A stretch of DNA of 64,000 bases from Anaerolineaceae bacterium. GTDB taxonomy: Bacteria > Chloroflexota > Anaerolineae > Anaerolineales > Anaerolineaceae. The stretch is from contig JAENZI010000002.1 of the NCBI GenBank assembly GCA_016841365.1, positions 62,001-126,000 on the forward strand, given 5' to 3'. Position numbers and translations under genes: made by a program. Each line of letters opens with the position of its first letter. The first letter of the stretch is position 1. The notes under the pieces were generated by a model. It worked only from the letters and a program-made list of their open reading frames with translations. It had not been told where the DNA came from and searched no databases. Below, piece after piece: positions 2,444-18,255 of the stretch.

Positions 2444-3718
2444 ATGAAGAAGCTGTTGCTCGTATTGCTTGTATTAATTGTTGTCCTTCCACTTGCAGCT
2501 TGCCAGGGAGAACCTGCTGAAGTTGCTGAAGAAGTGGAAGAAGTAGCAGAGGAAGTCGGCGAAGAAGCCGAAGAAGTAGCCGAAGAGGTTGCTGAGGAAG
2601 TCGAAGAGGTTGTTGAGGAAGAAGTTGAAGACCTCGAACCGATCGTGATCGGTAGCATTCAAGACTTGTCCGGTCCTGCATCTATCCCCGGTCAGGCGAA
2701 CGCCTGGGGCGCTGAATATGCCGTTCAGGTGATCAACGAAAATGGCGGCATCAACGGCCGAATGCTCGAAATTATCACCCTGGACTGTAAAAATGATCTC
2801 AACGAAGGCATCAACGCCTATCGCAAGCTTGTTGACGAACATGAAGTCACCGCCATCATTGGTCCACCCCTTTCAAACCCTGCCTCTGGTTGGGTTGAGC
2901 TTTCTGAAGAAGACCAGGTACCGATCGTCGGGCACTTCATGGATGAGGTCTGCACAACTGATCCTGACACCGGCGAAGCCTATCCTTATATGTTCCTGGC
3001 AGAGCCGAGCTGCTCATCACAGTCCTTCGCGATCGCAAAATTTGCAATGGAAGAACTTGGGCTGACTAAATTCGCTACACTCTACAACACAGGTAACGCC
3101 TTTGCAGTTGCACATGCGAAACCCTTCATGGAATATGTTGTAGACAATGGCGGTGAAGTTGTTGGTGAAGAGACCTTTACCTGGGCTGACACCGATTATA
3201 GCGCTCAGGCGTTGAAGATCGTCCAAGCAGCCCCTGAAGCTGTTTTCCTCTCAGATTATGTTAACCAGGCTGCTCTGGCTTATGATTTCTTGCGAGACGC
3301 TGGTTATGAAGGCGTAATCCTCGGAGCGAATACACTTGCTTTGCCATTCCCGGATCTCGTCAAAAATGAGGTTTACGATCTCTATTACCTGCAGAACTAC
3401 GACATGCTGAATCCTGAAGCAGGTGGATATGAGTTGTTCACAACTCATATGGAAGATGTCGGTACTGACTATCCAAAATCCAATGCTGGCTTTGGCTGGG
3501 ATGCGGTTCAGGTGCTTGTGGCTGCTATGCGCAAGGCTGAGGACCCGACCAATGGACCTGAATTACGTGATCTGCTTGAGCAGACCGATGGCGTTGAACT
3601 TGCAGAACGCACAATCACCATTGACCCGGCGACCCATCGTCCCAGCAATATGGGGATGTACATCGCTGATTATGATGAAAATATGCAAATTCGCATTTTG
3701 ACCTACATCGAACCGTAA
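2444..3718 (+). CDS. Liv-type ABC transporter substrate-binding lipoprotein
   Basis: This is the extracytoplasmic solute receptor of the adjoining LivHMGF importer. Residues 1-20 form a lipoprotein signal peptide ending in LAAC, with Cys20 as the lipidated residue. Residues ~25-62 are an almost pure Glu/Val/Ala linker (repeated EEVEEVAEEV) that probably forms a helical or coiled stalk. The Peripla_BP_6 fold follows (IVIGSIQDLSGPASIPG; NENGGINGR; VTAIIGPPLSNPA). The length (424 aa) is normal allowing for the linker. The ATG follows a good GGAGG site. Family members bind branched amino acids, amides, urea, aromatic acids or other small polar compounds, so the ligand cannot be read from the sequence; neighbours point to the substrate of cluster A. 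Confidence 0.9.
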   Translation: MKKLLLVLLVLIVVLPLAACQGEPAEVAEEVEEVAEEVGEEAEEVAEEVAEEVEEVVEEEVEDLEPIVIGSIQDLSGPASIPGQANAWGAEYAVQVINENGGINGRMLEIITLDCKNDLNEGINAYRKLVDEHEVTAIIGPPLSNPASGWVELSEEDQVPIVGHFMDEVCTTDPDTGEAYPYMFLAEPSCSSQSFAIAKFAMEELGLTKFATLYNTGNAFAVAHAKPFMEYVVDNGGEVVGEETFTWADTDYSAQALKIVQAAPEAVFLSDYVNQAALAYDFLRDAGYEGVILGANTLALPFPDLVKNEVYDLYYLQNYDMLNPEAGGYELFTTHMEDVGTDYPKSNAGFGWDAVQVLVAAMRKAEDPTNGPELRDLLEQTDGVELAERTITIDPATHRPSNMGMYIADYDENMQIRILTYIEP

Positions 3719-3748
3719 ACAACAACCCCAATTATCAACCCCGAATCA

Positions 3749-3783
3749 AAAAGGGCGAGCGAAAATCTGGCTCGCCCTTTTTA
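3749..3783 (+). terminator. Intrinsic terminator after the binding-protein gene
   Basis: Stem GGGCGAGC / GCTCGCCC (3753-3760 and 3770-3777) with a 9-base loop, followed by TTTTTAT. Placed between the receptor gene and the permease genes, it probably lets only part of the transcripts continue, giving more receptor than membrane parts. Confidence 0.85.
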
Positions 3784-3795
3784 TAGGAGAGTACT

Positions 3796-4677
3796 ATGGC
3801 TCTGCAATTAACGATTAATGGCATATCTATCGGTGCAATTTATGCCCTGATTGCTGTTGGCTTCGCTGTTGTGTTCAACATCATGCGCTTCAGCAACTTT
3901 GCCCACGGCGGAATGATCAGCGCCTGCGCTTTTATCAGTTTCTTTTTTCAACGTGCCTTTGACCCACCGCCACCCTTTTTTGTTACAGTCCTTTTCTCAG
4001 CAGTATGTGGCATGGGGATCGCACTTTTAATAGATACACTTGGATATCGGCGGATAAGGTTGAAGAACAGCCCAAAAATCTATTATTTCTTAATGTCATT
4101 AACATTCGCAATTCTTATTGAGCAAATTCTGACAGTTTTCTTTGGTACCGATATTTATGGTTTCCCAAGTGTTTTTAAGAGTCAAACATTTGAGATTGGG
4201 TCAATGATCTTTAAAACAATGAATATTGTCATTCTTGCAGTATCAGTTGTTATTCTTGTTGCCCTGGTTTGGATGATCAATAAGACCAAGATTGGTCTGG
4301 CTATTCGTGCTGTGGCAATTAACGCCGATACCAGCCGCCTAATGGGCATCAACTCGAGTGTGATCGTCACTGTTATTTTCATTATTGCCGGGGTTTTAGC
4401 CGGTGTATCAGGTGTTTTCTTGGGTGTTCAATATGGTGTTTTCCCCTCTGTCGGCCCCAGTATGATGCTGAAGGGTTTTATCGCCTCGATCATTGGCGGG
4501 CTTGGCAGCCTGAGCGGCGCGATTTTCGCTGCGCTGGCACTTGGGTTGATTGAAATGTTCCTGACATTTTTTATTGGTGCTACCGAAGCAACTGTGATCT
4601 TATTCGGCATCATGCTTGCCTTCTTGTTCATCCGACCGCAAGGCATCATGGGCATCATCGTAGAAGATAAGGCATAG
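3796..4677 (+). CDS. livH: Liv-type ABC transporter permease (LivH family)
   Basis: A 293-residue integral membrane protein of the branched-chain amino-acid/amide type permease family, with about eight hydrophobic segments. It begins LQLTINGISIGAIYALIAVG, typical of LivH, and has the conserved GxLGSLSGAIF loop region (GGLGSLSGAIFAALALG) near the C-terminus. With LivM it forms the translocation pore. ATG at 3796 follows GGAGAG. The livM gene starts 10 bases after the stop. Identification of the family is secure; substrate is not. Confidence 0.9.
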   Translation: MALQLTINGISIGAIYALIAVGFAVVFNIMRFSNFAHGGMISACAFISFFFQRAFDPPPPFFVTVLFSAVCGMGIALLIDTLGYRRIRLKNSPKIYYFLMSLTFAILIEQILTVFFGTDIYGFPSVFKSQTFEIGSMIFKTMNIVILAVSVVILVALVWMINKTKIGLAIRAVAINADTSRLMGINSSVIVTVIFIIAGVLAGVSGVFLGVQYGVFPSVGPSMMLKGFIASIIGGLGSLSGAIFAALALGLIEMFLTFFIGATEATVILFGIMLAFLFIRPQGIMGIIVEDKA

Positions 4678-4687
4678 GGAGGAAATT

Positions 4688-5599
4688 ATGAGTGCATATC
4701 AAACAGGCTTGATTGTTCAAATCAGTATTACGATTATGACGGTAGTGGCTGTGTTTGCCATGACGGGTTTGGCAGGCATGTTCTCCCTCGGACAGGCAGC
4801 ATACATGGCAGTTGGTGCATATGTCACCTTTGTACTGAGTCGATTTCTGGATATTCCATACCCAATTACCGGAATAATTTCAATTTTAATATCCATCTTA
4901 TTATCCTGGATAATCGCCGTACCGACCCTTAAGTTACGGCGTGATTATTTTGCATTGATCACTGTGGGTTTTAGTCAGATGATCCTTGCATTAGTCCTTT
5001 TATTTGAGGATTTCACACGTGGATCAATTGGATTTTCGAAAATTCCACGCATGGATAATCTTCTTTTGGTTTCTTTGGTTGGCCTGGCGTTGATTATCTT
5101 CTGGATTAGAAACCTCAAGTACTCCCGCTTTGGTAGGATGTGCATCGCACTAAAGAACGATGAAATAGCTGCGCGCAGTTTTGGGATCGATGTTTATCAC
5201 CTAAAAATTAAAATATATGTGCTTGCTTCCGCGATTGCCAGTTTTGCTGGCATTCTGATGGCGTTACGAAATCGTGTGATCACGCCCGATTCTTTCGGTT
5301 GGGCACAATCCGCAGAAATGCAGATCTTCCTGTTCTTCGGGGGCACGAACAGCCTGACCGGTGCCATCCTGTCGGCAGGCGGACTGAAGTTGCTGCCCGA
5401 ATTTGTCCGTGATGTAACCTTGTTTGGGGTCAGCATGCAGGAATACCGCACGATCATTTACGCCATCCTGATCATCATCGTGATCAACTTCCGACCGCAG
5501 GGCATTTTGGGCGAAAAAGAAATTAATTTCAAGTGGCTAAAAAACCTGTATAGAAGATTCAAACAATCTATTTTAAAGAAGAATGAATCCTATGACTGA
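4688..5599 (+). CDS. livM: Liv-type ABC transporter permease (LivM family)
   Basis: A 303-residue membrane permease, partner of the upstream LivH-like protein. It has the MFSLGQAAYMAVGAYV segment and the loop GGTNSLTGAILSAGGL, which in this family contacts the ATPases. It ends in a basic cytoplasmic tail (KWLKNLYRRFKQSILKKN). A GGAGG lies just before the ATG. Its stop overlaps the start of livG, indicating translational coupling. Confidence 0.9.
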   Translation: MSAYQTGLIVQISITIMTVVAVFAMTGLAGMFSLGQAAYMAVGAYVTFVLSRFLDIPYPITGIISILISILLSWIIAVPTLKLRRDYFALITVGFSQMILALVLLFEDFTRGSIGFSKIPRMDNLLLVSLVGLALIIFWIRNLKYSRFGRMCIALKNDEIAARSFGIDVYHLKIKIYVLASAIASFAGILMALRNRVITPDSFGWAQSAEMQIFLFFGGTNSLTGAILSAGGLKLLPEFVRDVTLFGVSMQEYRTIIYAILIIIVINFRPQGILGEKEINFKWLKNLYRRFKQSILKKNESYD

Positions 5600-6365
5600 A
5601 CAAATATTAAAAACACACAATTTATCAAAAGCCTTTGGCGGTGTATGCGCCGTCAAAGATTTTAACATGGAGATCAATGCGGGGCGGATCCGCGGCATCA
5701 TCGGCCCAAATGGTGCCGGCAAGACGACCATCTTCAACTTGCTCTCAAGGATTTACAAGGAAGATGAAGGCACGATTGAATTTGCTGGTCAGGACGTCAC
5801 CTCAAAATCCCAAATCGAAGTCGCCCGGATGGGGCTTTCACGCACCTTCCAAAATACACGCTTATTTGTTGGTCTGAATGTGCTGGACAACGTGAAAGTT
5901 GCTCTGGACCATGACGGGAAGTACAGTCTGTTTTCGGCGCTGTTCAAGCTCCCCTTCAGAAACAAACAGGAGCGGATGATCAAAGAGAAAGCCATGAGCT
6001 GTCTGGAACTGCTCAACCTGGATGAGTTTGCGAAGCTGTCGCCATCCAATCTTTCTTACGGGTATCAGCGGCGTGTTGAAATTGCGCGTGCACTGGCAAA
6101 CGACCCTAAGGTATTGATGCTGGATGAGCCGGCAGCAGGCCTTAATCCCGAAGAGACCTCTATGTTGATGGATTTCATCAAGGATATCCAGGCAAAATAC
6201 CCGAACCTGGCAATTCTGGTGATTGAACACCGCATGGAACTGATCATGAATCTCTGCGACCATATTTATGTGCAGGATTCGGGCTTGACGATTGCTGAGG
6301 GGACCCCCGCTGAGATTCAGAGTAACCCGAAGGTTTTGGCGGCATACCTGGGTGAGGAGGAGTAA
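5592..6365 (+). CDS. livG: Liv-type ABC transporter ATPase (LivG family)
   Basis: One of the two ATPases of the importer. Walker A is GPNGAGKTT, the signature is LSYGYQRRVEIARAL (the LSYG variant usual in LivG), Walker B is VLMLDEPAAGLNPEE, and the switch His lies in VIEHRM. ATG at 5592 overlaps the livM stop by 8 bases and has AAGAAG 9 bases upstream; an ATG at 5583 would add three residues. The LivG-type C-terminal extension after the H-loop is present (AEGTPAEIQSNPKVLAAYLGEE). Confidence 0.9.
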   Translation: MTEQILKTHNLSKAFGGVCAVKDFNMEINAGRIRGIIGPNGAGKTTIFNLLSRIYKEDEGTIEFAGQDVTSKSQIEVARMGLSRTFQNTRLFVGLNVLDNVKVALDHDGKYSLFSALFKLPFRNKQERMIKEKAMSCLELLNLDEFAKLSPSNLSYGYQRRVEIARALANDPKVLMLDEPAAGLNPEETSMLMDFIKDIQAKYPNLAILVIEHRMELIMNLCDHIYVQDSGLTIAEGTPAEIQSNPKVLAAYLGEEE

Positions 6366-6368
6366 TCC

Positions 6369-7091
6369 ATGAATATATTAGACATTACAGGCCTCCGTGT
6401 TTGGTACGACAAGATCGAAGCCATTCACTGCGTGGACCTCAAGTTTGAAGAAGGAAAGATCACGGCCATCATCGGTTCCAATGGTGCTGGGAAAACAACC
6501 ATCATCAATGCTATTTCGGGCATGGTCAAGCGCGATGGGCAGCTGTTTTATAAGGGCAAACTGCTGACCGACAAAAGCCACAAAGTTGTGCGGGAGGGCA
6601 TTATTCAGGTGCCAGAAGGGCGCAGGGTTTTCGCTGGTTTGACCACAGAGGAGAACCTTTTATTGGGCGCCTACAGCCTTGAAAACCGAAAAGAAATCTC
6701 AGGACTGCTTCAACAGCAGTACGCTTTGTTCCCGCGTTTGGAAGAACGGAAAAAGCAAGATGCAGGCACCCTTTCGGGCGGCGAACAGCAGATGCTGGCG
6801 ATTGCCCGCGGGCTGATGGCAAAGCCTCAAGTGTTGATGCTGGATGAGCCTTCGCTTGGCTTGGCGCCAATCATCACCAATGATGTCTTTAATAAAATTA
6901 CAACCATCCGTGAACAGGGCATCACGGTTATTTTGGTTGAGCAGAATGCGAAAAAATCTCTGAGCATTTGTGATCATGCCTATGTGATTGAAAACGGTCA
7001 TGTCGTGATGGAAGGGTCGGGCGATGAGCTGCTTCACAATGAGAAGGTCGCCCACGCTTATCTCAGCACGACGGTTGATGAAATTGAATAA
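6369..7091 (+). CDS. livF: Liv-type ABC transporter ATPase (LivF family)
   Basis: The second ATPase of the importer, 240 aa. Walker A is GSNGAGKTT, followed by the LivF-typical VPEGRRVFAGLTTEENL stretch. The signature is LSGGEQQMLAIARGL, Walker B is VLMLDEPSLGLAP, and the H-loop is preceded by ILVEQNAKKSLSICDHAYV. It starts three bases after livG and completes a five-part importer. The next gene starts 22 bases downstream, so the catabolic genes very likely share the transcript. Confidence 0.9.
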   Translation: MNILDITGLRVWYDKIEAIHCVDLKFEEGKITAIIGSNGAGKTTIINAISGMVKRDGQLFYKGKLLTDKSHKVVREGIIQVPEGRRVFAGLTTEENLLLGAYSLENRKEISGLLQQQYALFPRLEERKKQDAGTLSGGEQQMLAIARGLMAKPQVLMLDEPSLGLAPIITNDVFNKITTIREQGITVILVEQNAKKSLSICDHAYVIENGHVVMEGSGDELLHNEKVAHAYLSTTVDEIE

Positions 7092-7113: not shown

Positions 7114-7881
7114 ATGCAAATGAAACAACGACAAGTTGGTGAATTGACGGTATCTGTTTTTGATACACGTGAAGAGATGGGGAAGGCTGCTGCCGTTGAT
7201 GCGGCAGAGCGCATCAACCGGGTGATTGATGAAAATGGCGATGCAACAGTCGTTTTTGCGGCTGCCCCTTCGCAGAATGAGTTGCTGGCTGCTTTGAAGG
7301 AAGCAGATGTTGATTGGACAAAGGTTCGGGCGATGCACATGGATGAATATATCGGCTTGCCCGAAGACCATGAGGCTGGCTTTGGCAATTTTTTACGCCG
7401 TGCAATCTTTGATGACCTTCCGTTTAAAGCGGTTCACTTTCTCTATGGCAAGGATGACCCCGAGGCGATTTGTGCCCGTTACACCGAACTGCTCGAAAAA
7501 TATCCGCCAGATTTGGTGTTGTTAGGCGTTGGCGAAAACGGCCACCTGGCTTTCAATGACCCGGCAGTGGCTGACTTTGAGGACCCTAAGGCTGTCAAGA
7601 TTGTCGAACTGGATGATGTCTGCCGGATGCAGCAGGTCAATGATGGCTGCTTTGCGACTTTTGATGATGTGCCGGAAAAAGCCATCACCCTGACAATGAG
7701 CGCCATCTTGTCCATTGAAAATGCAGTCACTGTTGTGCCTGGGAAGACCAAAGCACAGGCTATCAAAAACATGCTGCACGGCGAGATCACAACAGATTGC
7801 CCTGCCAGCATCTTGCGTACCAAAGAAAATGCCGCTCTTTATCTGGATACGGACAGCGCGGCACTCGCGTTTACAGAATAA
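7114..7881 (+). CDS. NagB-like sugar-phosphate isomerase/deaminase family protein
   Basis: A 255-residue member of the glucosamine-6-phosphate deaminase / 6-phosphogluconolactonase superfamily. It keeps the NagB motifs HMDEYIGL (about residue 75, Asp of the active site) and GVGENGHLAFNDP (about 137, with the ring-opening His). NagB converts glucosamine-6-P to fructose-6-P and ammonia. No GlcNAc genes lie nearby. In this operon it may act on another amino or keto sugar derivative, or as a lactonase-like hydrolase. The start ATG AAA TG gives a choice of Met1 or Met3. Family call is firm, reaction is not. Confidence 0.75.
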   Translation: MQMKQRQVGELTVSVFDTREEMGKAAAVDAAERINRVIDENGDATVVFAAAPSQNELLAALKEADVDWTKVRAMHMDEYIGLPEDHEAGFGNFLRRAIFDDLPFKAVHFLYGKDDPEAICARYTELLEKYPPDLVLLGVGENGHLAFNDPAVADFEDPKAVKIVELDDVCRMQQVNDGCFATFDDVPEKAITLTMSAILSIENAVTVVPGKTKAQAIKNMLHGEITTDCPASILRTKENAALYLDTDSAALAFTE

Positions 7882-7901: not shown

Positions 7902-8648
7902 ATGTATTCCTATCAAAAAACTGCAGATGAGATTGTCAATCAGGACCCTGAATTAGCCATCATCCCTGTTGGCTCGTTGGAGCAGCATGGACCGCAACTG
8001 CCCATCATGACCGATTGGGCGATTGCGAAAGCCATGGGAGAGGGTGTGGCAGAAAAGACAAACGGCTTTCTGATCCCGGCACTGCCCATCAGCACATGCC
8101 GTGAGCATATGGGTAAAAAGGGCAGCGTCTGGATGGAACCGCCCACGTTCTACCATATGATGAACGATATGATCATGTCTTTGAAAACACAGGGATTTAG
8201 GAAGGTATGCATCATCCAGTGTCATGGCGGCATATTTGTGATGACGCCCCTGGTGCGCGATCTGAATGCAAAAAACAACCCTGATCTGATGGTTGCCAAC
8301 ATCGATATGATGGTGATCTTCCAAAAGTTGTATCAGGAAGGGTTGGTGGAGACCAACACAGAACTGCATGCTGGTGAGCTGGAAACTTCGATGATCCTGG
8401 TGTTAGCACCAGAAACGGTTCACATGGATCGGGCGGTGGATTTTGTACCCAATGTGCCCCGTGCCTATCTCAGCTACGGCAGCATTTTCCGCGCTACCCC
8501 GTTAGGCATGTGGGGCGAACCCACACGAGCAACCAAAGAGAAGGGTGAAGCGGCTTTGAATCGTGCGGTCGAACTGGCTGTGGAGGAGATGCAGAACATC
8601 TATAGCTATATGGAAAAGAAAAAGAAATTCGGTTACAGCGAATTTTAA
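7902..8648 (+). CDS. Creatininase-family metal hydrolase, copy 1
   Basis: A 248-residue protein of the creatininase superfamily, starting MYSYQKTADEI at an ATG after AAGGA. Metal-site motifs are visible: GSLEQHGP (Glu and His ligands), a TD ligand in PIMTDWAIA, and HAGELETS. The usual GHGGN segment reads QCHGG, and the His after EQHGP is Gln here (PQLP). Family members hydrolyse creatinine or formamide-type amides, process mycofactocin peptide (MftE), or open a diketo-inositol ring (IolN). It is a close paralogue of the next gene. Cytoplasmic. The reaction here is inferred only from context. Confidence 0.8.
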   Translation: MYSYQKTADEIVNQDPELAIIPVGSLEQHGPQLPIMTDWAIAKAMGEGVAEKTNGFLIPALPISTCREHMGKKGSVWMEPPTFYHMMNDMIMSLKTQGFRKVCIIQCHGGIFVMTPLVRDLNAKNNPDLMVANIDMMVIFQKLYQEGLVETNTELHAGELETSMILVLAPETVHMDRAVDFVPNVPRAYLSYGSIFRATPLGMWGEPTRATKEKGEAALNRAVELAVEEMQNIYSYMEKKKKFGYSEF

Positions 8649-8799: not shown

Positions 8800-9546
8800 A
8801 TGTATTCATATCAAATGACAGCAGACGATATCGTCAAACAAGACCCAGAACTGGCTATAATCCCGGTGGGGTCGCTTGAGCAGCATGGGCCGCACCTCCC
8901 GATCATGACCGATTGGGCAATTGCGGATGAGATGGGCAAGGGTGTGGCAGAAATGACCGGTGGATTCTTAATCCCTGCGCTGCCGATCAGCACTTGCCGT
9001 GAACACATGGGTAAAAAGGGAAGCGTGTGGATGGAACCGCTCACTTTTTATCAGATGATGAATGATATTATCATGTCCCTGAAAACACAGGGTTTTAAAA
9101 AGGTTTGTATTTTGCAGTGCCATGGCGGCATTTTCATTATGAAACCGCTTGTTCGTGACTTGAACGCAAAATACAACCCCGATTTGATGGTTGCGCATAT
9201 CGACTCGATGGATATCACGGCTGCATTGCGAGCCGAGGGGTTGCTTGAAACCACGACTGAGCTGCACGCTGGGGAATCGGAAGCCTCGAAGATGTTGGCA
9301 ATTGCGCCTGAGACCGTTCATATGGATCGGGTGGTGGATTATGTCCCCGAAGTGCCTCGTCCATATCTCAGTTATGGCAGCATTTTCAGGGCGACACCTG
9401 CCGGCTTGTGGGGTGAACCTTCTTTTGCCACCAAAGAAAAGGGCGAAGCAATCATGAAGCGGTCAGTCGAGTGGGCTGTCGAAGAAATGAATAATATTTT
9501 TGCCTACATGGAAAAGAAAGAAAAATTCGGCTACAGCTATTTTTAA
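8800..9546 (+). CDS. Creatininase-family metal hydrolase, copy 2
   Basis: Second tandem copy, 248 aa, alignable end to end without gaps to copy 1 and nearly identical over most stretches (MYSYQMTADDI; SLEQHGPHLPIMTDWAIA; HAGESEASK). It keeps the usual His after EQHGP but has HAGESEAS where copy 1 has HAGELETS. The 150 bases between the two copies hold no gene. GAGAGG lies 9-15 bases before the ATG. Duplication followed by divergence near the metal site suggests either two subunits of one enzyme or two related substrates. Confidence 0.8.
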   Translation: MYSYQMTADDIVKQDPELAIIPVGSLEQHGPHLPIMTDWAIADEMGKGVAEMTGGFLIPALPISTCREHMGKKGSVWMEPLTFYQMMNDIIMSLKTQGFKKVCILQCHGGIFIMKPLVRDLNAKYNPDLMVAHIDSMDITAALRAEGLLETTTELHAGESEASKMLAIAPETVHMDRVVDYVPEVPRPYLSYGSIFRATPAGLWGEPSFATKEKGEAIMKRSVEWAVEEMNNIFAYMEKKEKFGYSYF

Positions 9547-9571: not shown

Positions 9572-10588
9572 ATGGATGAAGCACAGTTGTTGCATATGAT
9601 CAGCACGCCGTCACAGCGGCTCGTTGATGACATCAAAAAGATTAATGGTGATATTCTCATTTTGGGTTGCGGTGGCAAAATCGGACCATCCCTGGCAATC
9701 ATGGCGAAACGTGCCATTGATGCAGCAGGTATCAACAAACGTGTCATCGGCGCATCACTGTTTGACTATGCCGGGGATGTTCAACGCATGCGGGATGCCG
9801 GGGTTGAGGTGATTGAAACGAATCTGTTTGACCCCGAGCAATTGGCTGCCTTGCCAGAAGTTGAGAATATCATTTACATGGTGGGGCGTAAGTTCGGCAC
9901 CTACAATGATCCCTCTATGACCTGGGCGATTAATGTACTGCTGCCCTTAAAAGTTTGCGAGCGTTTCCCACAGTCGAATTTTGTTGTGTTTTCAACTGGC
10001 AATGTTTACAGCTATGCGGATATTGCCAGCGGTGGCTCCTGTGAGACAGATCTGCCAGAGCCAGTCGGTGAATATGGGCAAACCTCCTTAGGGCGTGAGC
10101 GCGTTTTTGAGCATTATGCCAGCCTCAATGAGAACAAAGTCTTGTTGTTCCGGCTCAATTATTCCATTGACCTGCGGTATGGGGTGCTGTTTGATATTGC
10201 CAAAAACATCATGGAGGGCAACCCGATCAATCTTGGCATTGGCTATTTCAATTGCATCTGGCAGGGCGATGTGTGTGAATTCGCCCTGCGTGCCTTGCGT
10301 CACGTGAATAACCCGCCGGAAATTTTGAATGTTACCGGGCCAGAGAGCATCAGCATCGTATGGGCGGCAAATAAGATGGGTGAATTGTTAGGCAAAGCAC
10401 CCGTATTTTCGGAAGGCTCCCTTCCAAAAAAGGCATTATTTAGCAACACCACCAAGCTGACAAACCTGATGGGTTATCCGCACATGCCCTTGATGAAAAT
10501 GATGAAGATGGTCGCCGAATGGATCAAATCGGGTGGGAGCACGATCAATGCCCCGACACATTTTGAGGCAACTGACGGTAAGTATTAA
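9572..10588 (+). CDS. NAD-dependent epimerase/dehydratase-like protein, atypical active site
   Basis: 338 aa, extended-SDR fold: a Rossmann strand ILILGCGGKIGPSLA (about residues 29-43), then VFSTGNVYS where the active-site Ser/Thr normally lies. The catalytic Tyr-x-x-x-Lys reads YGQTS, so the lysine is missing. The C-terminal substrate domain is of normal size. Relatives are NDP-sugar epimerases and uronate dehydrogenases. With the Lys lost it may be a non-redox isomerase or binding protein, or use a nearby Arg (GRERVFE). It starts 25 bases after the hydrolase copy 2. Function unknown. Confidence 0.7.
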   Translation: MDEAQLLHMISTPSQRLVDDIKKINGDILILGCGGKIGPSLAIMAKRAIDAAGINKRVIGASLFDYAGDVQRMRDAGVEVIETNLFDPEQLAALPEVENIIYMVGRKFGTYNDPSMTWAINVLLPLKVCERFPQSNFVVFSTGNVYSYADIASGGSCETDLPEPVGEYGQTSLGRERVFEHYASLNENKVLLFRLNYSIDLRYGVLFDIAKNIMEGNPINLGIGYFNCIWQGDVCEFALRALRHVNNPPEILNVTGPESISIVWAANKMGELLGKAPVFSEGSLPKKALFSNTTKLTNLMGYPHMPLMKMMKMVAEWIKSGGSTINAPTHFEATDGKY

Positions 10589-10606: not shown

Positions 10607-11419
10607 ATGGAAAACTTTAATTTGAGTGGCAAAGTTGCAGTGATAACGGGTGGGGCGGGTGTTTTATGCTCCACAATGGCACATGGCTTTGCAGATGCAG
10701 GGGCAAAAATTGCTGTATTGGATCTAGCTGAAGCGCAAGCACAAATTGTTGCCGATGCGATCAACGCCAAAGGGGGTGAAGCAATTGCGGTTGGGGTGAA
10801 TGTTCTCGATTTGGAGAGCTTACAGCATGCCCGCCAGGTGGTGCTGGATCACTTCGGTCGGGTGGATATTCTCGTCAATGGTGCAGGTGGTAATAAAGCT
10901 GCCGCCACAACCAGCCCGGACCTATCCTTTTTTGACCTGCCGCAAGAGGCGCTGCAATGGGTGCTCAACCTGAACCTGCTCGGCACCGTCTATCCCACTC
11001 AGGTTTTTGGAAAGGTGATGGCGGATCAAAAGGCGGGCTGCATTTTGAATATCTCTTCGATGGCTGCAATGACACCCCTCACCAACACGATTGCCTACAG
11101 TGCTGCCAAAGCAGCAGTATCGAACTTCACCCAGTGGATGAGCGTTCACTTTTGCCAATTGTATTCGCCCGAAATCCGTGTGAACGCACTTGCCCCCGGG
11201 TTCTTGCTCACACAACAGAACCAGTATCTTTTAGAAGACGAGGATGGCAACCGAACTGTCCGCGGGCAGAAGATCATTGACGGCACCCCCATGGGTCGCT
11301 ATGGTAAACCCGAAGAATTGGTCGGCGCAGCGATTTATCTTTGTTCAGACGCTGCCAGTTTTGTCACCGGAGTGGTTCTGCCTATTGATGGCGGATTCAG
11401 TGCATATTCAGGCGTTTAG
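10607..11419 (+). CDS. SDR oxidoreductase, D-mannonate oxidoreductase (fructuronate reductase) type
   Basis: 270 aa classical SDR. Cofactor motif ITGGAGVLCSTMA, then NGAGGN, catalytic Ser in NISSMAAMTPL and Tyr-x-x-x-Lys in AYSAAKAAV. It ends DGGFSAYSGV. This set (GVLC after TGGAG, AGGN, SAYSGV end) is that of the Bacillus-type SDR enzyme that reduces D-fructuronate to D-mannonate with NAD(P)H. Mannonate is dehydrated to KDG, and KDG kinase and KDPG aldolase are encoded further down, which fits. No mannonate dehydratase is present in the window. Annotated by pattern recall, so the substrate is likely but unproven. Confidence 0.7.
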   Translation: MENFNLSGKVAVITGGAGVLCSTMAHGFADAGAKIAVLDLAEAQAQIVADAINAKGGEAIAVGVNVLDLESLQHARQVVLDHFGRVDILVNGAGGNKAAATTSPDLSFFDLPQEALQWVLNLNLLGTVYPTQVFGKVMADQKAGCILNISSMAAMTPLTNTIAYSAAKAAVSNFTQWMSVHFCQLYSPEIRVNALAPGFLLTQQNQYLLEDEDGNRTVRGQKIIDGTPMGRYGKPEELVGAAIYLCSDAASFVTGVVLPIDGGFSAYSGV

Positions 11420-11454: not shown

Positions 11455-12531
11455 ATGATGAGTGAAAAAGTGAAGGTATTATTGGTCGGCGCAGCGTTTT
11501 CTGCGGATTTACATGCAGATGGCTATGCCCGTATCCCTGATCGGGTGGAGATCGTCGGGATTGTGGACAAGGCATTAGACCGTGTGCACGCCCTGGCAGA
11601 TAAATATGGTTTTGAAGGTTATAAAGCATACGATGATTACAAAACTGCCATCGCAGAAGCAGATTGCGATGTGGTGGATATTTGTCTGCCCAACTTTTTG
11701 CATCACCCGGTGGCGATGGCTGCCTTGAATAAAGGGCGGGATGTGATCAGCGAAAAACCATTGGCTACAAAGGTCGAAGATGCCCGGGAGATGGTCGAAA
11801 CAGCACAAAAACTTGGCAAGCACATTTATTATGCTGAAGATTGGTTGGGTTCGCCTGCGTTGCGAAAAGCACGGGAGTTGGTTGACTCTGGTGCGATTGG
11901 CGAATTGCAATTTGTGAGGGCACGCGAATGCCACAGCGGATCGCACAGCCCCTTTGCCCAGACGATTGAATTTTGCGGCGGCGGTGCAATGGTGCACCTG
12001 GGCGTGCATCCGGTCGGTTTTATGTTGGCATTGAAGAACAACCGCTGGAAGGAATTGGTTGCGCTGACATCAGGCGGCGGTGAGTCAAACCTTGTCCATA
12101 AAACAATGGAAGGCGAGGATTGGGCGGGTGCATTGATGCGCTTTGATGATGGCACCACAGCGGTGCTGGAGGCAAACTATGTCACACTTGGCGGGATGGA
12201 AGATAGTATCGACTTCTATGGCACCAAGGGCTGTCTGCATGTTGACCTGACTTTTTCCAGCGCCATTCAGGGTTTCAGCATTCCCGGGTTCGATTACACG
12301 GTTGAAAAAGCAGAAGTCACCACTGGCTGGTCAAAGCCTGCAGTTGATGAACGCTATAACCTCGGGTATGTTGCAGAAATTGAGCATTTTGTAGAGTGTG
12401 TTGCTGAGGACAAAGATGCGGATGTCGGTTTGCGAGGTGTGGACGGTTTGGAAACACTAGAGGTGATCAACCTGATCTACAAATCCAGCCGAGAGGGCAT
12501 TCGGATCACGAATAGCAAGTTGGAGAATTAG
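11455..12531 (+). CDS. Gfo/Idh/MocA family dehydrogenase
   Basis: 358 aa. N-terminal Rossmann domain (VKVLLVGAAFSADLHADGY) with the family's EKP motif (SEKPLATKVEDARE), then the alpha/beta C-terminal domain with GGGAMVHLGVHPVGF, where the His residues belong to the active site. Members oxidise or reduce hydroxyls of inositols, sugars and sugar acids with NAD(P). The ATG follows a strong AAGGAGG; ATG ATG gives a one-residue ambiguity. Three bases separate its stop from the next start. A damaged member of the same family lies at 1592-2017, perhaps a former part of this system. Confidence 0.85.
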   Translation: MMSEKVKVLLVGAAFSADLHADGYARIPDRVEIVGIVDKALDRVHALADKYGFEGYKAYDDYKTAIAEADCDVVDICLPNFLHHPVAMAALNKGRDVISEKPLATKVEDAREMVETAQKLGKHIYYAEDWLGSPALRKARELVDSGAIGELQFVRARECHSGSHSPFAQTIEFCGGGAMVHLGVHPVGFMLALKNNRWKELVALTSGGGESNLVHKTMEGEDWAGALMRFDDGTTAVLEANYVTLGGMEDSIDFYGTKGCLHVDLTFSSAIQGFSIPGFDYTVEKAEVTTGWSKPAVDERYNLGYVAEIEHFVECVAEDKDADVGLRGVDGLETLEVINLIYKSSREGIRITNSKLEN

Positions 12532-12534
12532 CCA

Positions 12535-15138
12535 ATGACTGCCAACGATATCAAAATTCCGGTGAAGTTGGGGGGGATCACATTCAAGAATCCCTTTTAT
12601 GTTGCATCCGGCCCAACAGTTAAATCTGTTAGGCAATTACAGCGTATTGAAGAGACCGGGTGGGCAGCAGCCAGCATCAAGTTGACAATTGACCCCGTCC
12701 CATACATCAATCGGAAACCTCGCTATGGCTTGTTTGAACACCAGCATGCGCTGGCTTTCACAGCCGAAAAACGGTTGACCTTTCCCGAAGGTCTGCGCCT
12801 GGTAGAAGAGGGCAAAAAAGTCCTCCATGATCTGATCCTGATGGCAAACATGACCTATGCCGGAGATGAAGGCGTTTCGGGCTGGGTCAATATGGCACGT
12901 CAATTCGAGTCAGCAGGGGCAGATATTATTGAGTTAAATATGTGCTGCCCAAACATGTCCTATAACCTCGAAGTGTCGGGGAAAGATGAAACCCAGATCA
13001 CGAAAAAGACGGGCGCCAGCATGGGGCAGCAGGCAGATGTCGCCGCTGAAATTGTTGCAGCAATCGCGGATGTGATCAATATCCCGCTATTCGTCAAATT
13101 GACGCCTGAGGGCGGGAAGATTGCCCGGGTTGCCCAATCATTGTATGCTGCTGGCGCGGATGCGGTGGGTTCGACCGGCAATCGTCTTGGAATTCCGCCG
13201 ATCAACCTGGAGCATCCCAACACGTCCAGTTACCATTTGCAGGATGAGATCAGCATTAGCTGCTATTCCAGCTCATGGCTCAAACCGCTGGCGCAGCGGG
13301 ATACTTATGAGATCCGCAAAACAAATGAGCCCGATCCCTTTATCACCGCGACAGGCGGCATCACCAACTGGCGTGATGCCGTGGAGATGATCCTGTGCGG
13401 CGGTAATTTGCTGGGGATTTGTTCTGAAACGCTAATCAACGGTTATGATATCGTGCATCCGATGATCAAAGGATTGCACGATTATATGGTGGAGCATCAA
13501 TATCAAAGTCTGGATGATTTCCGCGGCAGCATCGTTACCGAAGTGAAGACATCAGATGAGGTGACCCTGCACGATGGTTACGCCCGCATTGTCCAGCCGA
13601 ATTTGTCTGCGCCCTGCAAAGCCGTTTGCCCGCACCATGTGCCGGTTCAGGCATATGTTCAGAAGGTGGCAAAGGGCGAGTTTCGTGATGCCTTTGAGCT
13701 GATCACTGAGAAAAACCCCCTGCAGGACATCTGTGGGTTGGTATGCAGCGCACCCTGTGAGGATGTTTGCACCTTGGGGAAAGTCAGTCGTCCGGTTGAA
13801 ATCCGTGCTATCAAGCGGTTTGTACTGGAATATGGCCGTGAACAGGGCTGGCTAGAGGGCGGTCAGGCGGATAAGCCAAATGGGCACCGCGTGGCGGTGA
13901 TTGGTTCTGGTCCTGCGGGGCTGACCGCAGCGGTGACCCTGCGCAAGGCAGGTTACGAGGTAAGCATCTTTGAGCGCGAGAACGAACTTGGCGGCAATTT
14001 GCGTTTTGCTGTGCCTTCATTCAGGCTTGACCGTCAGCGCTTGCAAAATGAACTCGACCGCATTTTGGCTTATGGGATGGATGTACAGTTTGGTAAAGCG
14101 CTGGGGCGTGATTTCAGCCTTGAAGATCTGTTTGAGAATGGTTATGACGGCGTGTTTGTGGCTGTCGGCGCACAGGCGGATGAACCCCTGGGCATTGCCG
14201 GTGAGGACGCTAATGGTGTCATCAAAGCAAGTGCGCTGCTCAAATCCGTCAGCGAGGTTAAGGATATCACCTTGGGCGAAAGTGTCATTGTGGTTGGGGA
14301 GTCCTACAGTGCTTTGGATGCTGCCCAGACGGCAGTCCGTTTAGGTGCTGCCATAGTGACCCTGGCTTCAAAAGGCTTTTCAAAACGTAAAGGCACCTTA
14401 CAGGAACAACTCGTACAAGCTCGTGAAGAAGGCGTGCGCTTGCTTGAGGACGTGACAATTACGAAGATATTACAAGACGATGGGAAGGTGGCTGGGGTTG
14501 AATTGGTTAATTCCCTGGGCTTGACCATGCAAGCGGATTGTGACGCGGTCATTCTCGCTGGTGAATTGCATGTGGAAGAAAGCATCGGAGAATCGATCGT
14601 TAAGAACGGTAAGATCAAAGTTGACCGGAAAACGGGCGCAACTTCACAGCCGGGTGTGTATGCAGGCGGTGATGCTTCCCGGACCGGAAATATCATCTCG
14701 GCTATTGCCGCAGGAAAGCGCGGGGCAGTTTCGCTTGACCAGTATATTCGTAAAGAGACGGCAACCCTGACCTATACCCCTGATACCGTTGTGGTTGACA
14801 CCAACCAGGTATTACAGCGTGTTGGCTACCTGAAAGATTCTTCGCTTTCACCGGATACCATCACGATGAGCCCTGAAGAACGCGTCAAATCCTTTGATCC
14901 GTTTGAGCGCGTTCTTACTCAGGCAGAAGCTGTTGCGGAAGCCAGCCGCTGCTTGAATTGCGGATGTGGTGAGGGATGTCAGCTTTGCAAGACCATCTGC
15001 TGCGAGTTTGCCCCGGATATTGTTGCGCCGGACACGCTCGGCATAGACCCGAATTTATGCGTGGCATGCGGTATGTGCTATTTACGCTGCCCGCTTCAAA
15101 ATATAGAGATGGTAAATACCGATCTCAATAAAGATTAA
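12535..15138 (+). CDS. Dihydropyrimidine-dehydrogenase-like flavo-iron-sulfur fusion, permuted domain order
   Basis: 867 aa in three blocks. Residues 1-~330 are a dihydroorotate-dehydrogenase-type FMN barrel (PVKLGGITFKNPFYVASGP; NMCCPNMS at ~136; TATGGITNWRDA). Residues ~355-800 are a GltD/PreT-type block: a cysteine-rich Fe-S region (CKAVCPHHVPV, DICGLVCSAPCEDVC), then FAD and NAD(P) domains (GSGPAGLTAA at ~456; a second nucleotide motif at ~585). Residues ~805-860 hold two cysteine groups (CLNCGCGEGCQLCKTICC; CVACGMCYLRCP). Mammalian-type DPD has the GltD block first and the FMN barrel after it; here the barrel is first. Such enzymes move electrons between NAD(P)H and a ring double bond. 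The substrate is unknown. Confidence 0.8.
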   Translation: MTANDIKIPVKLGGITFKNPFYVASGPTVKSVRQLQRIEETGWAAASIKLTIDPVPYINRKPRYGLFEHQHALAFTAEKRLTFPEGLRLVEEGKKVLHDLILMANMTYAGDEGVSGWVNMARQFESAGADIIELNMCCPNMSYNLEVSGKDETQITKKTGASMGQQADVAAEIVAAIADVINIPLFVKLTPEGGKIARVAQSLYAAGADAVGSTGNRLGIPPINLEHPNTSSYHLQDEISISCYSSSWLKPLAQRDTYEIRKTNEPDPFITATGGITNWRDAVEMILCGGNLLGICSETLINGYDIVHPMIKGLHDYMVEHQYQSLDDFRGSIVTEVKTSDEVTLHDGYARIVQPNLSAPCKAVCPHHVPVQAYVQKVAKGEFRDAFELITEKNPLQDICGLVCSAPCEDVCTLGKVSRPVEIRAIKRFVLEYGREQGWLEGGQADKPNGHRVAVIGSGPAGLTAAVTLRKAGYEVSIFERENELGGNLRFAVPSFRLDRQRLQNELDRILAYGMDVQFGKALGRDFSLEDLFENGYDGVFVAVGAQADEPLGIAGEDANGVIKASALLKSVSEVKDITLGESVIVVGESYSALDAAQTAVRLGAAIVTLASKGFSKRKGTLQEQLVQAREEGVRLLEDVTITKILQDDGKVAGVELVNSLGLTMQADCDAVILAGELHVEESIGESIVKNGKIKVDRKTGATSQPGVYAGGDASRTGNIISAIAAGKRGAVSLDQYIRKETATLTYTPDTVVVDTNQVLQRVGYLKDSSLSPDTITMSPEERVKSFDPFERVLTQAEAVAEASRCLNCGCGEGCQLCKTICCEFAPDIVAPDTLGIDPNLCVACGMCYLRCPLQNIEMVNTDLNKD

Positions 15139-15151
15139 GGAGAAATACTTA

Positions 15152-16228
15152 ATGACACAAGCATCAAAGAAAATTAGACTTTCCGATCTCAAAGCTTTTT
15201 GTGCACAATCGTTGGTTAAAGCAGGCATGTCTGAGAAAGACGCCAGGATCACGGCTGAAGTGTTGGCTGAAACTGACGCTTATGGCACCCATTCACACGG
15301 CACGGTGAACCTTGCCAACTATGTCAAAAAAGCTAAAGCTGGCGGTTTAGATATTCAAGCTGAACCCGATGTCATCAGAGACGGTCCTGCGTTTGCGATT
15401 TTGGATGGTAGAAATGCGATGGGGATGGTCCCTGCTTACATGGGGATGGATCTTGCCTGCCAAAAAGCAAAAACCGCTGGTATCGGGATTGTGACCGTGC
15501 GCAACAGCACGCATTTTGGCGCGGCTGGATATTATGCCAACATGGCAGCACTGCGCGGCATGGTCGGTATTACGATGAGCAATGTGGACCCAAATATGAC
15601 TGTACCCGGTGCACGGGGTATGTTGATCGGCAATAATCCATTGGCTTATGCTGCACCCTCAAGTGAGAAACCCACGGTGTTTTTAGATATTGCGCTCAGT
15701 AATGTTGCCTCGCTGAAGGTCGTCAAAGCACGTAAAGAAGGCAAATCGATCCCCAGCACGTGGATTGTGGATAAAGATGGAGTCGCAACTTCCGATCCCA
15801 GCCACTACCCCGAAGAAGGCGCCATGCAGCCTATGGCAGCTCATAAGGGTTATGGATTGGCGGTGATGGTTGAAATGCTAACAGGCGGACTTTCGGGCGG
15901 TGCGATGAGCATGCTGGATAATATCGTCAGCTGGCTGTTCGAAATCGACGAGCCTAACCGGGTTTGCCACACCTTCATTGCGATTGATGTTGAGCAGTTT
16001 GTTGGAACGGACGCCTTTACAAAACGCATTGATGATATGGTCAAAGCCCTGCATGAGGCGCCCAAAGCCAAAGGTTCAGACAGAATCTACGTCCCGGGTG
16101 AGATGGAATGGGATAGATATGAAAAGGCTGAGGATGGATTGACGCTGCCGACAAATGTCGTTGAATCGCTTGAGGTTTTACACGAGATTTCAGGTGTTGA
16201 GATTAATTGGATTGTAGATGAGGACTGA
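15152..16228 (+). CDS. Malate/L-lactate dehydrogenase (LDH2) family oxidoreductase
   Basis: 358 aa, the NAD(P)-dependent family unrelated to classical MDH/LDH (members: ureidoglycolate dehydrogenase AllD, 2,3-diketogulonate reductase YiaK, delta-1-piperideine-2-carboxylate reductase). The two active-site histidines are visible in GTHSHGTVNL and VRNSTHFGAAGYY, and the cofactor loop in GNNPLAYAAPS. Its place between a DPD-like enzyme and KDPG aldolase suggests reduction or oxidation of a 2-keto/2-hydroxy acid. GGAG lies 9 bases before the ATG. Function class sure, substrate open. Confidence 0.85.
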   Translation: MTQASKKIRLSDLKAFCAQSLVKAGMSEKDARITAEVLAETDAYGTHSHGTVNLANYVKKAKAGGLDIQAEPDVIRDGPAFAILDGRNAMGMVPAYMGMDLACQKAKTAGIGIVTVRNSTHFGAAGYYANMAALRGMVGITMSNVDPNMTVPGARGMLIGNNPLAYAAPSSEKPTVFLDIALSNVASLKVVKARKEGKSIPSTWIVDKDGVATSDPSHYPEEGAMQPMAAHKGYGLAVMVEMLTGGLSGGAMSMLDNIVSWLFEIDEPNRVCHTFIAIDVEQFVGTDAFTKRIDDMVKALHEAPKAKGSDRIYVPGEMEWDRYEKAEDGLTLPTNVVESLEVLHEISGVEINWIVDED

Positions 16229-16235
16229 TCAGAAA

Positions 16236-17198
16236 ATGAACACATTAGAAAGAATTGGTTTAGCAGGGTTAGTACCGGTTGTTGTGATCAACGATGCAGA
16301 TGATGCTGTGCCAGCGGCAGAAGCCTTGCTGAAGGGCGGGTTGGATATCATGGAAATTACCATGCGCACCGATGCCGGCATTCAGGCGATTAAGAATGTG
16401 GCAGACGGTTGCCCAGAGATGCTGGTTGGCGCAGGAACTGTCTTGACCTTGGAAAAATGTCAGGAAGCGGTCGATGCTGGTGCAAAGTTTATTGTTTCAC
16501 CGGGCTTCAACGAAAAGATTGTTGCCTGGTGTGTTGAGAATGACGTTGCAGTCACCCCTGGTTGTGTGACACCCACCGAGATTGAAGCGGCACTGGCTTA
16601 CGGCATCAAAACGGTGAAGTTCTTCCCGGCAGGCACTTATGGCGGGATCCAGGCATGCAAGTCGCTCTATGGTCCGTATCGAGCGGCAGATGTGTCCTTT
16701 ATCCCCACAGGTGGGGTTGACAACAGTAACCTGCCTGACTTTGCTGATAAACCCTACATTCATGCTGTTGGCGGCAGTTGGTTATGCTCTTCATCGGCGA
16801 TTGCCAAACATGATTTTGATGCCATCACTGCGAGCGCCAGCACCGCGATTGATGTTCTGCTGGGGTTTGAAGTGGCACATATTGGGATCAATATGAATGA
16901 TAAGGACTCCTCACTGAGGGCGGCGGACAGCTTCAATAAGGCGTTTAACTTCCCTGTCAAAGAAGGGAATAGCTCGAATTTCGCTGGCACCGGGATTGAG
17001 ATTATGAACGCGCCTTACCTGGGTGCGAACGGACATATCGCGATCCGCACCAACAGCATTGCCCGTGCTATTCACTATTTGGGCAAACGCGGTTTTGAGG
17101 TGGATGAGACCACTGCAAAATTCAAAGATGGCAGAATGATTGCTGTCTATCTCAAAGATGAATTTGGCGGGTTTGCTGTCCATTTGTTGCAAAAGTAG
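16236..17198 (+). CDS. eda: KDPG/KHG aldolase with extra C-terminal VOC-like domain
   Basis: 320 aa. Residues 1-~205 are the class I aldolase that splits 2-keto-3-deoxy-6-phosphogluconate into pyruvate and glyceraldehyde-3-phosphate: Glu in MEITMRT, Schiff-base Lys in KTVKFFPAG, phosphate site in PTGGV. Ordinary Eda has ~205-215 residues. The remaining ~110 residues (from [12 protein letters not shown]) look like a glyoxalase/VOC module, and it ends with [13 protein letters not shown] at 16236 is preferred because GAGG lies 12 bases before it and the family starts at [13 protein letters not shown]; an ATG at 16218 would overlap the previous gene. Confidence 0.85.
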
Positions 17199-17229
17199 AA
17201 AAATTCAGATCAGAAAGGAATTTAAATCA

Positions 17230-18255
17230 ATGAGAGTTGTAACTTTTGGTGAAATCATGCTGCGTCTCAAGGCGCCTGGCTGTGAACGATTCTTCCAAAC
17301 GCCATTACTGGAAGCAACATTTGGCGGTGGTGAAGCCAATGTGGCTGTTTCATTGGCGAATTACGGGATGGATGCCGCATTTGTGACAGTGTTACCTGAA
17401 AACGTCTTGGGCGATGCCTGCTTGCAGGAGTTGCGGCGTTTTTCAGTGGATACCAGCAAGATCAAGCGTGGCCCCGGGCGGATGGGTGTTTATTTCTTGG
17501 AGGCGGGCGCCAATCAACTGCCCAGCAAGGTGGTCTATGACCGCAGTGATTCTGCGATATCCCTGGCAAAACCTGGTGATATTGACTGGGAAGACGCTTT
17601 TGATGGTGCCGATTGGTTCCATATCACCGGCATTACCCCCGCAATCTCTGCAAATGCGATGGCATTGGCCTTAGAATCCGTCAAAGCCGCCAAAGAAATG
17701 GGCTTAACGGTATCCTGCGATCTGAACTTCCGCAAGAAACTGTGGAAGTATGGCAAAAGCGCACCTGAAGTGATGTCTGAGCTGGTCAAGTTTGTGGATG
17801 TCGCCATTGCCAATGAGGAGGATTGTCAGAAATCACTGGGCATTAAAGCCGATGTTGATGTAGCGAGCGGTAAGCTTGAGCATGATAAGTATCGCGCCCT
17901 TTCGGATGCAGTGCTGAAAGCCTATCCTAACCTGAAAATGATTGGGATCACCCTGCGAGAAAGCGTGAGTGCGGACCACAATGACTGGTCTGCCTGCCTT
18001 AACGATCGTGAGAATTTTTACCTTAGCCGCAGATATGAAATCAAAGATATTGTCGACCGTGTAGGCGGCGGCGACTCCTTTGGCGGCGGTTTGATCTATG
18101 GCCTCAACACTTATGAAAGCAAGCAGGATGCACTTGAGTTTGCTGTGGCTGCAAGCTGCCTCAAACATTCGATCTCAGGTGACTTCAACCGTGTCAGCGT
18201 GGCAGATGTGGAAAAATTAATGGGCGGCGACGCCTCAGGACGCGTGCAGCGATAA
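17230..18255 (+). CDS. kdgK: 2-keto-3-deoxygluconate kinase (PfkB family)
   Basis: 341 aa ribokinase-family sugar kinase. It opens with [15 protein letters not shown] and [13 protein letters not shown] (substrate site), and has the catalytic Asp in [16 protein letters not shown], the variant usual in KDG kinases. It phosphorylates KDG to KDPG, which is the substrate of the aldolase encoded just upstream. ATG at 17230 follows AAAGGAATTT. It is the last gene of cluster A and is followed by a terminator. Confidence 0.85.

Follow-up and report, generated by a model that had tools for sequence, protein, structure and literature searches.

A Gfo/Idh and dihydropyrimidine dehydrogenase-like enzyme pair in a candidate Anaerolineaceae catabolic operon ending in a probable 2-keto-3-deoxygluconate kinase

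By what route might a bacterium deliver carbon as 2-keto-3-deoxygluconate (KDG) if none of the dehydratase families known to form this compound is found in its genome? The question is raised by a run of 15 genes in a 64,000-nucleotide stretch of DNA from an Anaerolineaceae bacterium (hereafter the window), which is part of contig C19 of a 2.86 Mb genome that is 98% complete. All 15 genes lie on the forward strand at 2444-18255, their open reading frames are intact and the gaps between them range from -17 to 151 nt, which confirms what the initial annotation had seen; its view of a catabolic operon whose last genes encode a 2-keto-3-deoxy-6-phosphogluconate (KDPG) aldolase and a probable KDG kinase is supported as well. 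From the 5' end, five genes of a Liv-type importer are followed by a NagB-like gene, two creatininase-type hydrolases, an extended short-chain dehydrogenase/reductase (SDR), another SDR, a Gfo/Idh-type dehydrogenase, a fusion protein resembling dihydropyrimidine dehydrogenase (DPD), an LDH2-type oxidoreductase, the aldolase and a PfkB kinase. Pfam and NCBIfam confirm the family of 13 of the 15; the names of the two unscanned genes, LivM and LivF, rest on gene order and on tblastn matches in related loci (L013 and L018-L021). We corrected the start of the sugar kinase, probably 17230 (the listed open reading frame begins at 17140), and those of the creatininase-type genes, 7902 and 8800.

2444..3718, forward strand: LivK-type (HAAT) solute-binding lipoprotein (PF13458, 193 bits)
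3796..4677, forward strand: LivH-type permease (PF02653, 122 bits)
4688..5599, forward strand: LivM-type permease (open reading frame; matches in L013 and L018-L021, 42-70% identity)
5583..6365, forward strand: LivG-type ATPase (PF00005 and PF12399 above cut-off)
6369..7091, forward strand: LivF-type ATPase (open reading frame; matches in L013 and L018-L021, 53-67% identity)
7114..7881, forward strand: NagB-like protein (PF01182, 83 bits; phosphate loop replaced by AAAPSQ)
7902..8648, forward strand: creatininase-type hydrolase A (PF02633, 181 bits)
8800..9546, forward strand: creatininase-type hydrolase B, the tandem copy (PF02633, 178 bits)
9572..10588, forward strand: distant extended-SDR protein with the NAD epimerase/dehydratase fold (PF01370, 30 bits, E 4e-7)
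10607..11419, forward strand: SDR of the D-mannonate oxidoreductase subfamily (NF006132, 380 bits, above the cut-off of 281)
11455..12531, forward strand: Gfo/Idh-type dehydrogenase (PF01408 and PF22725 above cut-off)
12535..15138, forward strand: DPD/YgfK-like flavo-iron-sulfur fusion (PF01180, PF14691 and PF07992 above cut-off; PF00037 at 20.1 of 21.1)
15152..16228, forward strand: LDH2-family 2-hydroxyacid/2-oxoacid oxidoreductase (PF02615, 375 bits)
16218..17198, forward strand: KDPG/KHG aldolase (PF01081, 217 bits; TIGR01182, 226 bits, above the cut-off of 156)
17230..18255, forward strand: PfkB sugar kinase, probable KDG kinase (PF00294, 94 bits)

The reading that we favour, tentatively and with less than even confidence, is that this is a horizontally spread and probably anaerobic operon that would oxidize, reduce and hydrolyse a ring and deliver its carbon as KDG. 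In a more specific form, which is possible if doubtful, the Gfo/Idh and DPD-like enzymes would reductively deoxygenate a cyclitol- or amino-sugar-like ring whose opening gives KDG without a dehydratase, in a system that has moved between phyla and uses two unrelated hydrolase families. Gene content, conservation, residue changes and the dehydratase families not found are read from the sequence, and it is from these that we infer every reaction.

Genome-wide profile searches of the window genome found no UxuA, IlvD/Edd, UxaA/GarD or KduI, the set searched being one that leaves aside pyridoxal phosphate fold-II D-glucosaminate dehydratases and dihydrodipicolinate synthase-type dehydratases; of 14 control genomes, between 2 and 14 gave hits with the same models. 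The sole MR/MLE_C hit is an enolase (679 bits, cut-off 300). The lack of a known KDG-forming dehydratase thus appears real across the genome: the absence of mannonate and altronate dehydratases that had first been noted for the window extends well beyond it, and the suggestion of an unusual step to KDG is strengthened by these searches. An ordinary hexuronate route is correspondingly weakened, as no known dehydratase family was found to serve it. The genome of a related Chloroflexi record (L013; completeness not stated) also yielded no UxuA, IlvD/Edd or UxaA; the better of its MR/MLE hits scores highest as an Ala-Glu epimerase, below every listed cut-off, and the other is unclassified. A SelA/DgaE-type ammonia-lyase was rejected as a candidate, the sole SelA-family protein in the window genome being a true SelA (531 bits). 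As a separate observation, finding no IlvD/Edd genome-wide suggests that the organism is auxotrophic for branched-chain amino acids.

Is the gene order kept elsewhere, as the initial annotation had proposed to check? With hydrolase B as the query, genomes sampled at one per species yielded 18 related loci, which by their record labels are mostly Clostridia, with one Chloroflexi metagenome-assembled genome (L013) and one labelled just as a bacterium (L023). The creatininase-type, Gfo/Idh and DPD-like genes are consecutive in 15 of the 18 (all counts come from tblastn, since the open reading frame caller picked antisense frames in some loci). Two of the three exceptions, L012 and L026, reach contig ends; L027 is cut in the same way, and L026 and L027 are two pieces from one isolate, outside the creatininase-type alignments. 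The NagB-like gene lies immediately upstream of the hydrolase in 13 of 18, and the core of NagB-like, hydrolase, Gfo/Idh and DPD-like proteins shares 44-76% amino acid identity in Clostridia and Chloroflexi records. Because core neighbours are kept at such identities, the operon does not appear to be a chance grouping. Every gene type of the window operon was seen in L018; the sequence fetched for L013 shows the same types apart from the extended SDR, its kinase being cut by the locus end. Liv genes adjoin the core in 5 of 18 loci (L013 and L018-L021), extended-SDR orthologues occur in four of 18 (L018-L021), and orthologues of the kinase and aldolase belong to or adjoin the clusters of L013 and L018 (the L018 kinase is 78% identical), with a more distant kinase and aldolase in L019-L021. 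Within the window's own phylum, 2 of 301 sampled genomes match at 1e-40, namely the window genome itself and one with a 36% match, and the one same-genus genome examined has none. This sporadic presence, taken with 57-76% identity in most of the other loci, points to horizontal transfer of the operon.

The clusters vary around their core. Those in L022 and L024, in which no NagB-like gene was seen, have genes for a D-2-hydroxyacid dehydrogenase and an FGGY gluconokinase-like protein, and a malic-enzyme-like gene is added in L011, L014, L016, L017 and L025 (by clustering, with family calls on L014 and L011). A second search, made with the dihydroorotate dehydrogenase-like domain in the order of Anaerotruncus colihominis, had matches in 9 of 295 genomes, and the 8 other than A. 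colihominis were fetched. The Gfo/Idh gene is immediately upstream of the DPD-like gene in all eight, and an Amidohydro_3 protein follows in six (L097-L100, L102 and L103; four by Pfam scan, two by tblastn), with the SDR between the two in four of these (L097, L098, L099 and L103). At E 1e-15, Amidohydro_3 matches were found in 0 of the 18 first loci and creatininase-type matches in 0 of the eight further ones. L101 has the Gfo/Idh and DPD-like genes alone; L104 has a NagB-like gene before Gfo/Idh, no hydrolase was seen there, and it has two DPD-like fusion copies. With the pair kept in 8 of 8 and the hydrolase swapped between the two families, the most constant part of the cluster by sequence is the Gfo/Idh and DPD-like pair, and the hydrolase is evidently exchangeable between unrelated metal-dependent families. 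The two DPD-like copies of L104 lie at 3532-5943 and 13274-15889, one with the NagB-like and Gfo/Idh genes and the other without.

Both members of this pair depart from the enzymes after which they would be named. The Gfo/Idh protein has EKPLA and HLGxH in 16 of 16 aligned copies, where we take the usual family motif to be DxGxH, so that a histidine replaces the usual aspartate; it scores 102 bits against the IolG model, below the cut-off of 355. The fusion combines a dihydroorotate dehydrogenase-like FMN barrel, Fer4_20, an FAD/NAD domain and a C-terminal iron-sulfur domain. It scores below the cut-offs of the YgfK model TIGR03315 (211 bits, cut-off 835) and of PreA (174 of 335 bits). Aligned to pig DPD, whose residue numbers we counted from the alignment, it keeps Asn668 and Cys671 and has lost Asn609, Glu611, Asn736 and Thr737; we take Cys671 to be the active-site cysteine and the five other residues to be those that bind the pyrimidine. 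On account of these lost pocket residues, pyrimidine reduction was rejected. The active cysteine and the motif ELNMCCPNMS are invariant in 25 of 25 copies. The second Rossmann motif, of the NAD(P) type GxGxxA, read by eye, is intact in 18 of the 25 and eroded in seven, suggesting a different electron donor in some copies.

The two hydrolases belong to the creatininase superfamily (181 and 178 bits to PF02633, cut-off 31.3) and share 79% amino acid and 75% nucleotide identity, evidently as a local tandem duplication; two copies at one locus occur in the window only, and in 0 of the 18 related loci. Residues E27, H29, D38, H108 and E159, presumably the metal ligands, are invariant in 17 of 17 aligned proteins (L021, L026 and L027 stand outside this alignment, though L021 is covered by another). 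An AlphaFold2 model of hydrolase B (pLDDT 89.1) finds its best solved matches among creatininase-family structures, 3lub, 3a6g and 3no4 among others; a weak Foldseek match to IlvD (E 4e-4, TM 0.36) was left unused. The initial annotation had linked these enzymes to IolN, a 3-dehydro-scyllo-inosose hydrolase, and this identity is not supported: they reach 82 and 77 bits against the IolN model NF041098 (cut-off 245), and in a 43-row tree the IolN proteins form a clade of their own (support 100; seven rows, six proteins), with the operon hydrolases and one relative (L008) in a separate clade, also with support 100. Since L003/L006 and L004/L069 are locus pairs with identical protein, the distinct proteins in this tree are fewer than its rows, and proven creatininase and MftE lie outside it (0 of 251 genomes exceed the TIGR04448 cut-off). 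Scores likewise fall short for creatininase (TIGR04448, 103 and 99 bits, cut-off 235) and for MftE (TIGR03964, 93 and 89 bits, cut-off 172). The window genome carries an IolN of its own on a different contig (C16:27323-28243, 506 bits against the cut-off of 245). This IolN (L065:7288-8250) adjoins two Zn-type alcohol dehydrogenases, both below the IolM cut-off, and is a candidate for a separate inositol route. The genome also has a second tandem pair of creatininase-family genes (L061:7932-11505; C1, about 45.9-49.5 kb) in a different type of cluster, with a LacI-type gene before it and a luciferase-like gene, both recognized by eye, and a palindrome core upstream.

The NagB-like protein is below every listed NagB cut-off (best NagB model 130 of 528 bits; TIGR00502 121 of 237), and AAAPSQ stands in place of the phosphate loop in 14 of 14 such proteins. 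Despite this loss it keeps equivalents of an arginine and a lysine that we take to contact phosphate in NagB. Its fold, as modelled by AlphaFold2 (pLDDT 92.8, with NagB structures as best matches), is that of NagB. The earlier idea that this gene could go with loss of ammonia gains a little from the altered phosphate site and from an importer of the amino-acid/amide type. The aldolase is narrowly below PRK05718 (230 of 241 bits) and has an extra C-terminal part of about 110 amino acids without a Pfam match. The extended SDR has no NCBIfam match at E 0.001. For the kinase, KDG as the substrate is suggested by its neighbours and by NF041633, which it matches over the kinase half with 503 bits, the cut-off of 700 being that of the whole fusion. 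In the importer, the nearest solved relatives of the LivK-type protein are annotated as amino-acid or amide binders and the motif GHFMDE is invariant in six of six aligned homologues; by sequence its ligand is not inferable past the HAAT type.

Arranged as a pathway, these parts suggest the following. The Liv/HAAT importer would take up a small polar ring compound, possibly one containing nitrogen. The Gfo/Idh enzyme would oxidize a ring hydroxyl to a ketone, and a neighbouring group, activated by this, would be lost to give a conjugated C=C, which the DPD/YgfK-like enzyme would then saturate, creating the CH2 of KDG; with the CH2 made in this way, no sugar-acid dehydratase would be required. 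A creatininase-type hydrolase would open the ring and pull the unfavourable reduction, as is thought for SsnA with YgfK. The NagB-like protein could isomerize the unphosphorylated product, release ammonia from it, or do both, and the SDR and LDH2-type enzymes would bring C5 and C2 to the right oxidation states, giving KDG, from which the kinase and KDPG aldolase would yield pyruvate and glyceraldehyde 3-phosphate. If true, this would be a new reductive ring-opening route for sugar-like compounds in gut and other anaerobic bacteria, and it would explain how the KDG/KDPG end of the Entner-Doudoroff pathway is used without a known dehydratase in some genomes. Subfamilies now automatically annotated as creatininase, glucosamine 6-phosphate deaminase, dihydropyrimidine dehydrogenase and inositol dehydrogenase would then need new names. 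Two named carriers, Anaerotruncus colihominis DSM 17241 and Thermoclostridium caenicola DSM 19027, make the pathway testable.

The closest parallel for coupling reduction to hydrolysis is YgfK with SsnA in Escherichia coli, a flavo-iron-sulfur reductase adjoining a metal-dependent hydrolase in anaerobic metabolism, where the hydrolytic step is believed to draw the reduction forward. A report on this reductive uric acid pathway describes product formation by YgfK from yanthine only when the SsnA hydrolase and NAD(P)H were present, likens this to PydA/PydB and notes NADH and ferredoxin variants (PMC12507026). The operon differs in that its flavoenzyme belongs to another subfamily, its hydrolase is usually creatininase-type, it has a constant Gfo/Idh partner and a sugar-acid finish, and no purine genes were seen in it. 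With PreTA or DPD and dihydropyrimidinase it shares PreA/PreT-like domains, the logic of a reductase with a cyclic amidohydrolase, and the catalytic cysteine and Asn668; unlike them, it has no equivalents of the four lost pocket residues and encodes no dihydropyrimidinase. Riboflavin degradation was set aside as a parallel because its gene set, as far as the source gives it, differs (PMC12934955). A survey of iron-sulfur flavoenzymes (PMC7371122) covers Oxidored_FMN proteins, and its main text makes no mention of creatininase, Gfo, DHO, dihydropyrimidine or YgfK. Among the matches listed in literature searches, which mostly did not cover subscription papers, there is no description of this cluster.

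Several observations weigh against the proposed reductive route to KDG. No operon enzyme is allotted to the elimination that follows ring oxidation, and the steps leave the extended SDR and the second hydrolase without a role. The window copy is one of the seven DPD-like proteins with an eroded GxGxxA (GESYSA), so that its electron donor is doubtful. The kinase falls below every KDG kinase cut-off (207 of 440 for NF041332, 114 of 400 for NF040938 and 57 of 400 for NF052444). Among the genomes examined, UxuA is found in 6 of 14, an MR/MLE_C match (enolases included) in 11 of 14, UxaA in 4 of 8 and IlvD/Edd in 3 of 8; operon hosts among the Clostridia often have UxuA, UxaA or other MR/MLE proteins, and in such hosts an ordinary dehydratase could serve. 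L023 has the hydrolase without the rest of the core, and the sequence fetched for L010, L022, L023 and L024 showed no NagB-like gene (with little of it upstream in L010 and L022). In the fetched Amidohydro_3 clusters no KDG kinase, KDPG aldolase or LDH2-type gene was seen, so that in some genomes the core may have an outcome other than KDG.

This last observation is also what speaks for two modules lying side by side, in which the Gfo/Idh, DPD-like and hydrolase enzymes would break down a ring that is not a sugar, such as an N-heterocycle, and the SDR, LDH2-type enzyme, aldolase and kinase would be an ordinary sugar-acid route that happens to share the transcript in this genome; in L013 those four genes run in the opposite direction. 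We think this quite improbable, since the usual dehydratases of such a route were not found in the window or L013 genomes, both modules occur together in the window, L013 and L018 (with the distant kinase and aldolase in L019-L021), and the SDR is present in four of the six Amidohydro_3 clusters too. An inositol or deoxy-cyclitol route with IolN-like logic is unlikely but somewhat better placed. Here the Gfo/Idh enzyme and the SDR would each oxidize a ring hydroxyl, the hydrolase would split the resulting 1,3-diketone to a 5-keto acid, the SDR and LDH2-type enzymes would adjust this to KDG (directly if the substrate were a deoxy-cyclitol such as quercitol), and the DPD-like enzyme would merely balance electrons. 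With the Thermotoga-type inositol pathway, which includes IolN, the operon shares a creatininase-superfamily hydrolase, a Gfo/Idh dehydrogenase (its 102 bits to IolG falling below cut-off) and a hexuronate-type SDR. A deoxy-cyclitol substrate would also account for the lacking dehydratase, and 6 of the 18 related records are labelled as herbivore gut samples. Against it, the operon hydrolases fall in another clade, the operon has no Zn-alcohol dehydrogenase of the IolM type and the genome has its own IolN and Zn-type alcohol dehydrogenases elsewhere; moreover, the importer is of the amino-acid/amide type, the NagB-like protein would have no role, and mere electron balancing does not explain why the DPD-like gene is in the most constant part.

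Similarly unlikely, in our judgement, is a route from an imported aminohexuronate or N-acylated amino sugar acid. In it the hydrolase, whether creatininase-type or Amidohydro_3, would work as an amidase; the NagB-like protein would turn a 2-amino uronate into fructuronate or tagaturonate by deamination; the SDR would reduce this product, and an unrecognized step would lead on to KDG. The retained arginine and lysine equivalents with the altered phosphate loop would suit such a substrate, as would the SDR score above the D-mannonate oxidoreductase cut-off, and there is precedent in the marine ong pathway for oxidized chitin, where, in the available part of the description, an amino sugar acid is converted to KDG with loss of ammonia before KdgK acts (PMC9537276). 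The likeness to that pathway lies in the KDG kinase and in forming KDG by ammonia release; its pyridoxal phosphate enzyme OngC, RidA protein and SSS transporter, as named in that part of the source, have no counterpart in the operon. No OngC-type PF14031 protein was found genome-wide in the window genome, whose only SelA-family protein is SelA itself; the Gfo/Idh and DPD-like enzymes would have no clear role, and the NagB-like gene goes unseen in four of the 18 loci.

Two elements flank the operon.

2351..2364, no strand assigned: perfect 14-bp palindrome GGAAAACGTTTTCC, a putative LacI-family-type operator about 80 nt before livK
18322..18363, forward strand: terminator-like hairpin that follows the last gene and has a U-rich tail (from folding of 18270-18375)

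The palindrome GGAAAACGTTTTCC occurs in the window as a single copy with 0 mismatches; allowing two or fewer mismatches, 0.34 occurrences are expected by chance, and at least one was seen in 29 of 100 shuffles. In 4 of the 18 related loci a shorter form, G.AAACGTTT.C, turns up five times in all, against 0 of eight other loci. It precedes operon genes in L012, L019 and L020, standing in the latter two immediately ahead of the liv genes and near a LacI-type gene (by family call in L020, by clustering in L019); in L011 two copies adjoin a LacI-type gene. Elsewhere in the window genome it is found once, in the cluster of L061. Within the window no LacI gene adjoins the operon, so we word the operator reading as putative. 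In L013, the stretch that separates the liv genes from a divergent IclR/KdgR-like gene holds two direct repeats TAGGAAACGGTTAAAT, 25 bases apart and about 198-223 bases before livK, which may be regulator sites. The fold of 18270-18375, which includes a second hairpin, has -36.9 kcal/mol and a z of -5.27, with 0 of 200 shuffles equally stable.

Upstream of the operon, 1592-2017 on the reverse strand is a truncated near-copy of a complete short Gfo-like gene of 286 amino acids found shortly before the window begins (C19:60434-61291, PF01408; L062:10435-11292), the two being separated by an FG-GAP-repeat gene. A short Gfo-like cluster adjoins the operon in L010 and L018-L021. Directly past the terminator, a small XRE-type helix-turn-helix reading frame was recognized by eye at about 18490-18700 on the forward strand, and nearby, at 19654-21984 on the reverse strand, lie a PfkB kinase and a malic-enzyme-like gene, the latter also identified by eye.

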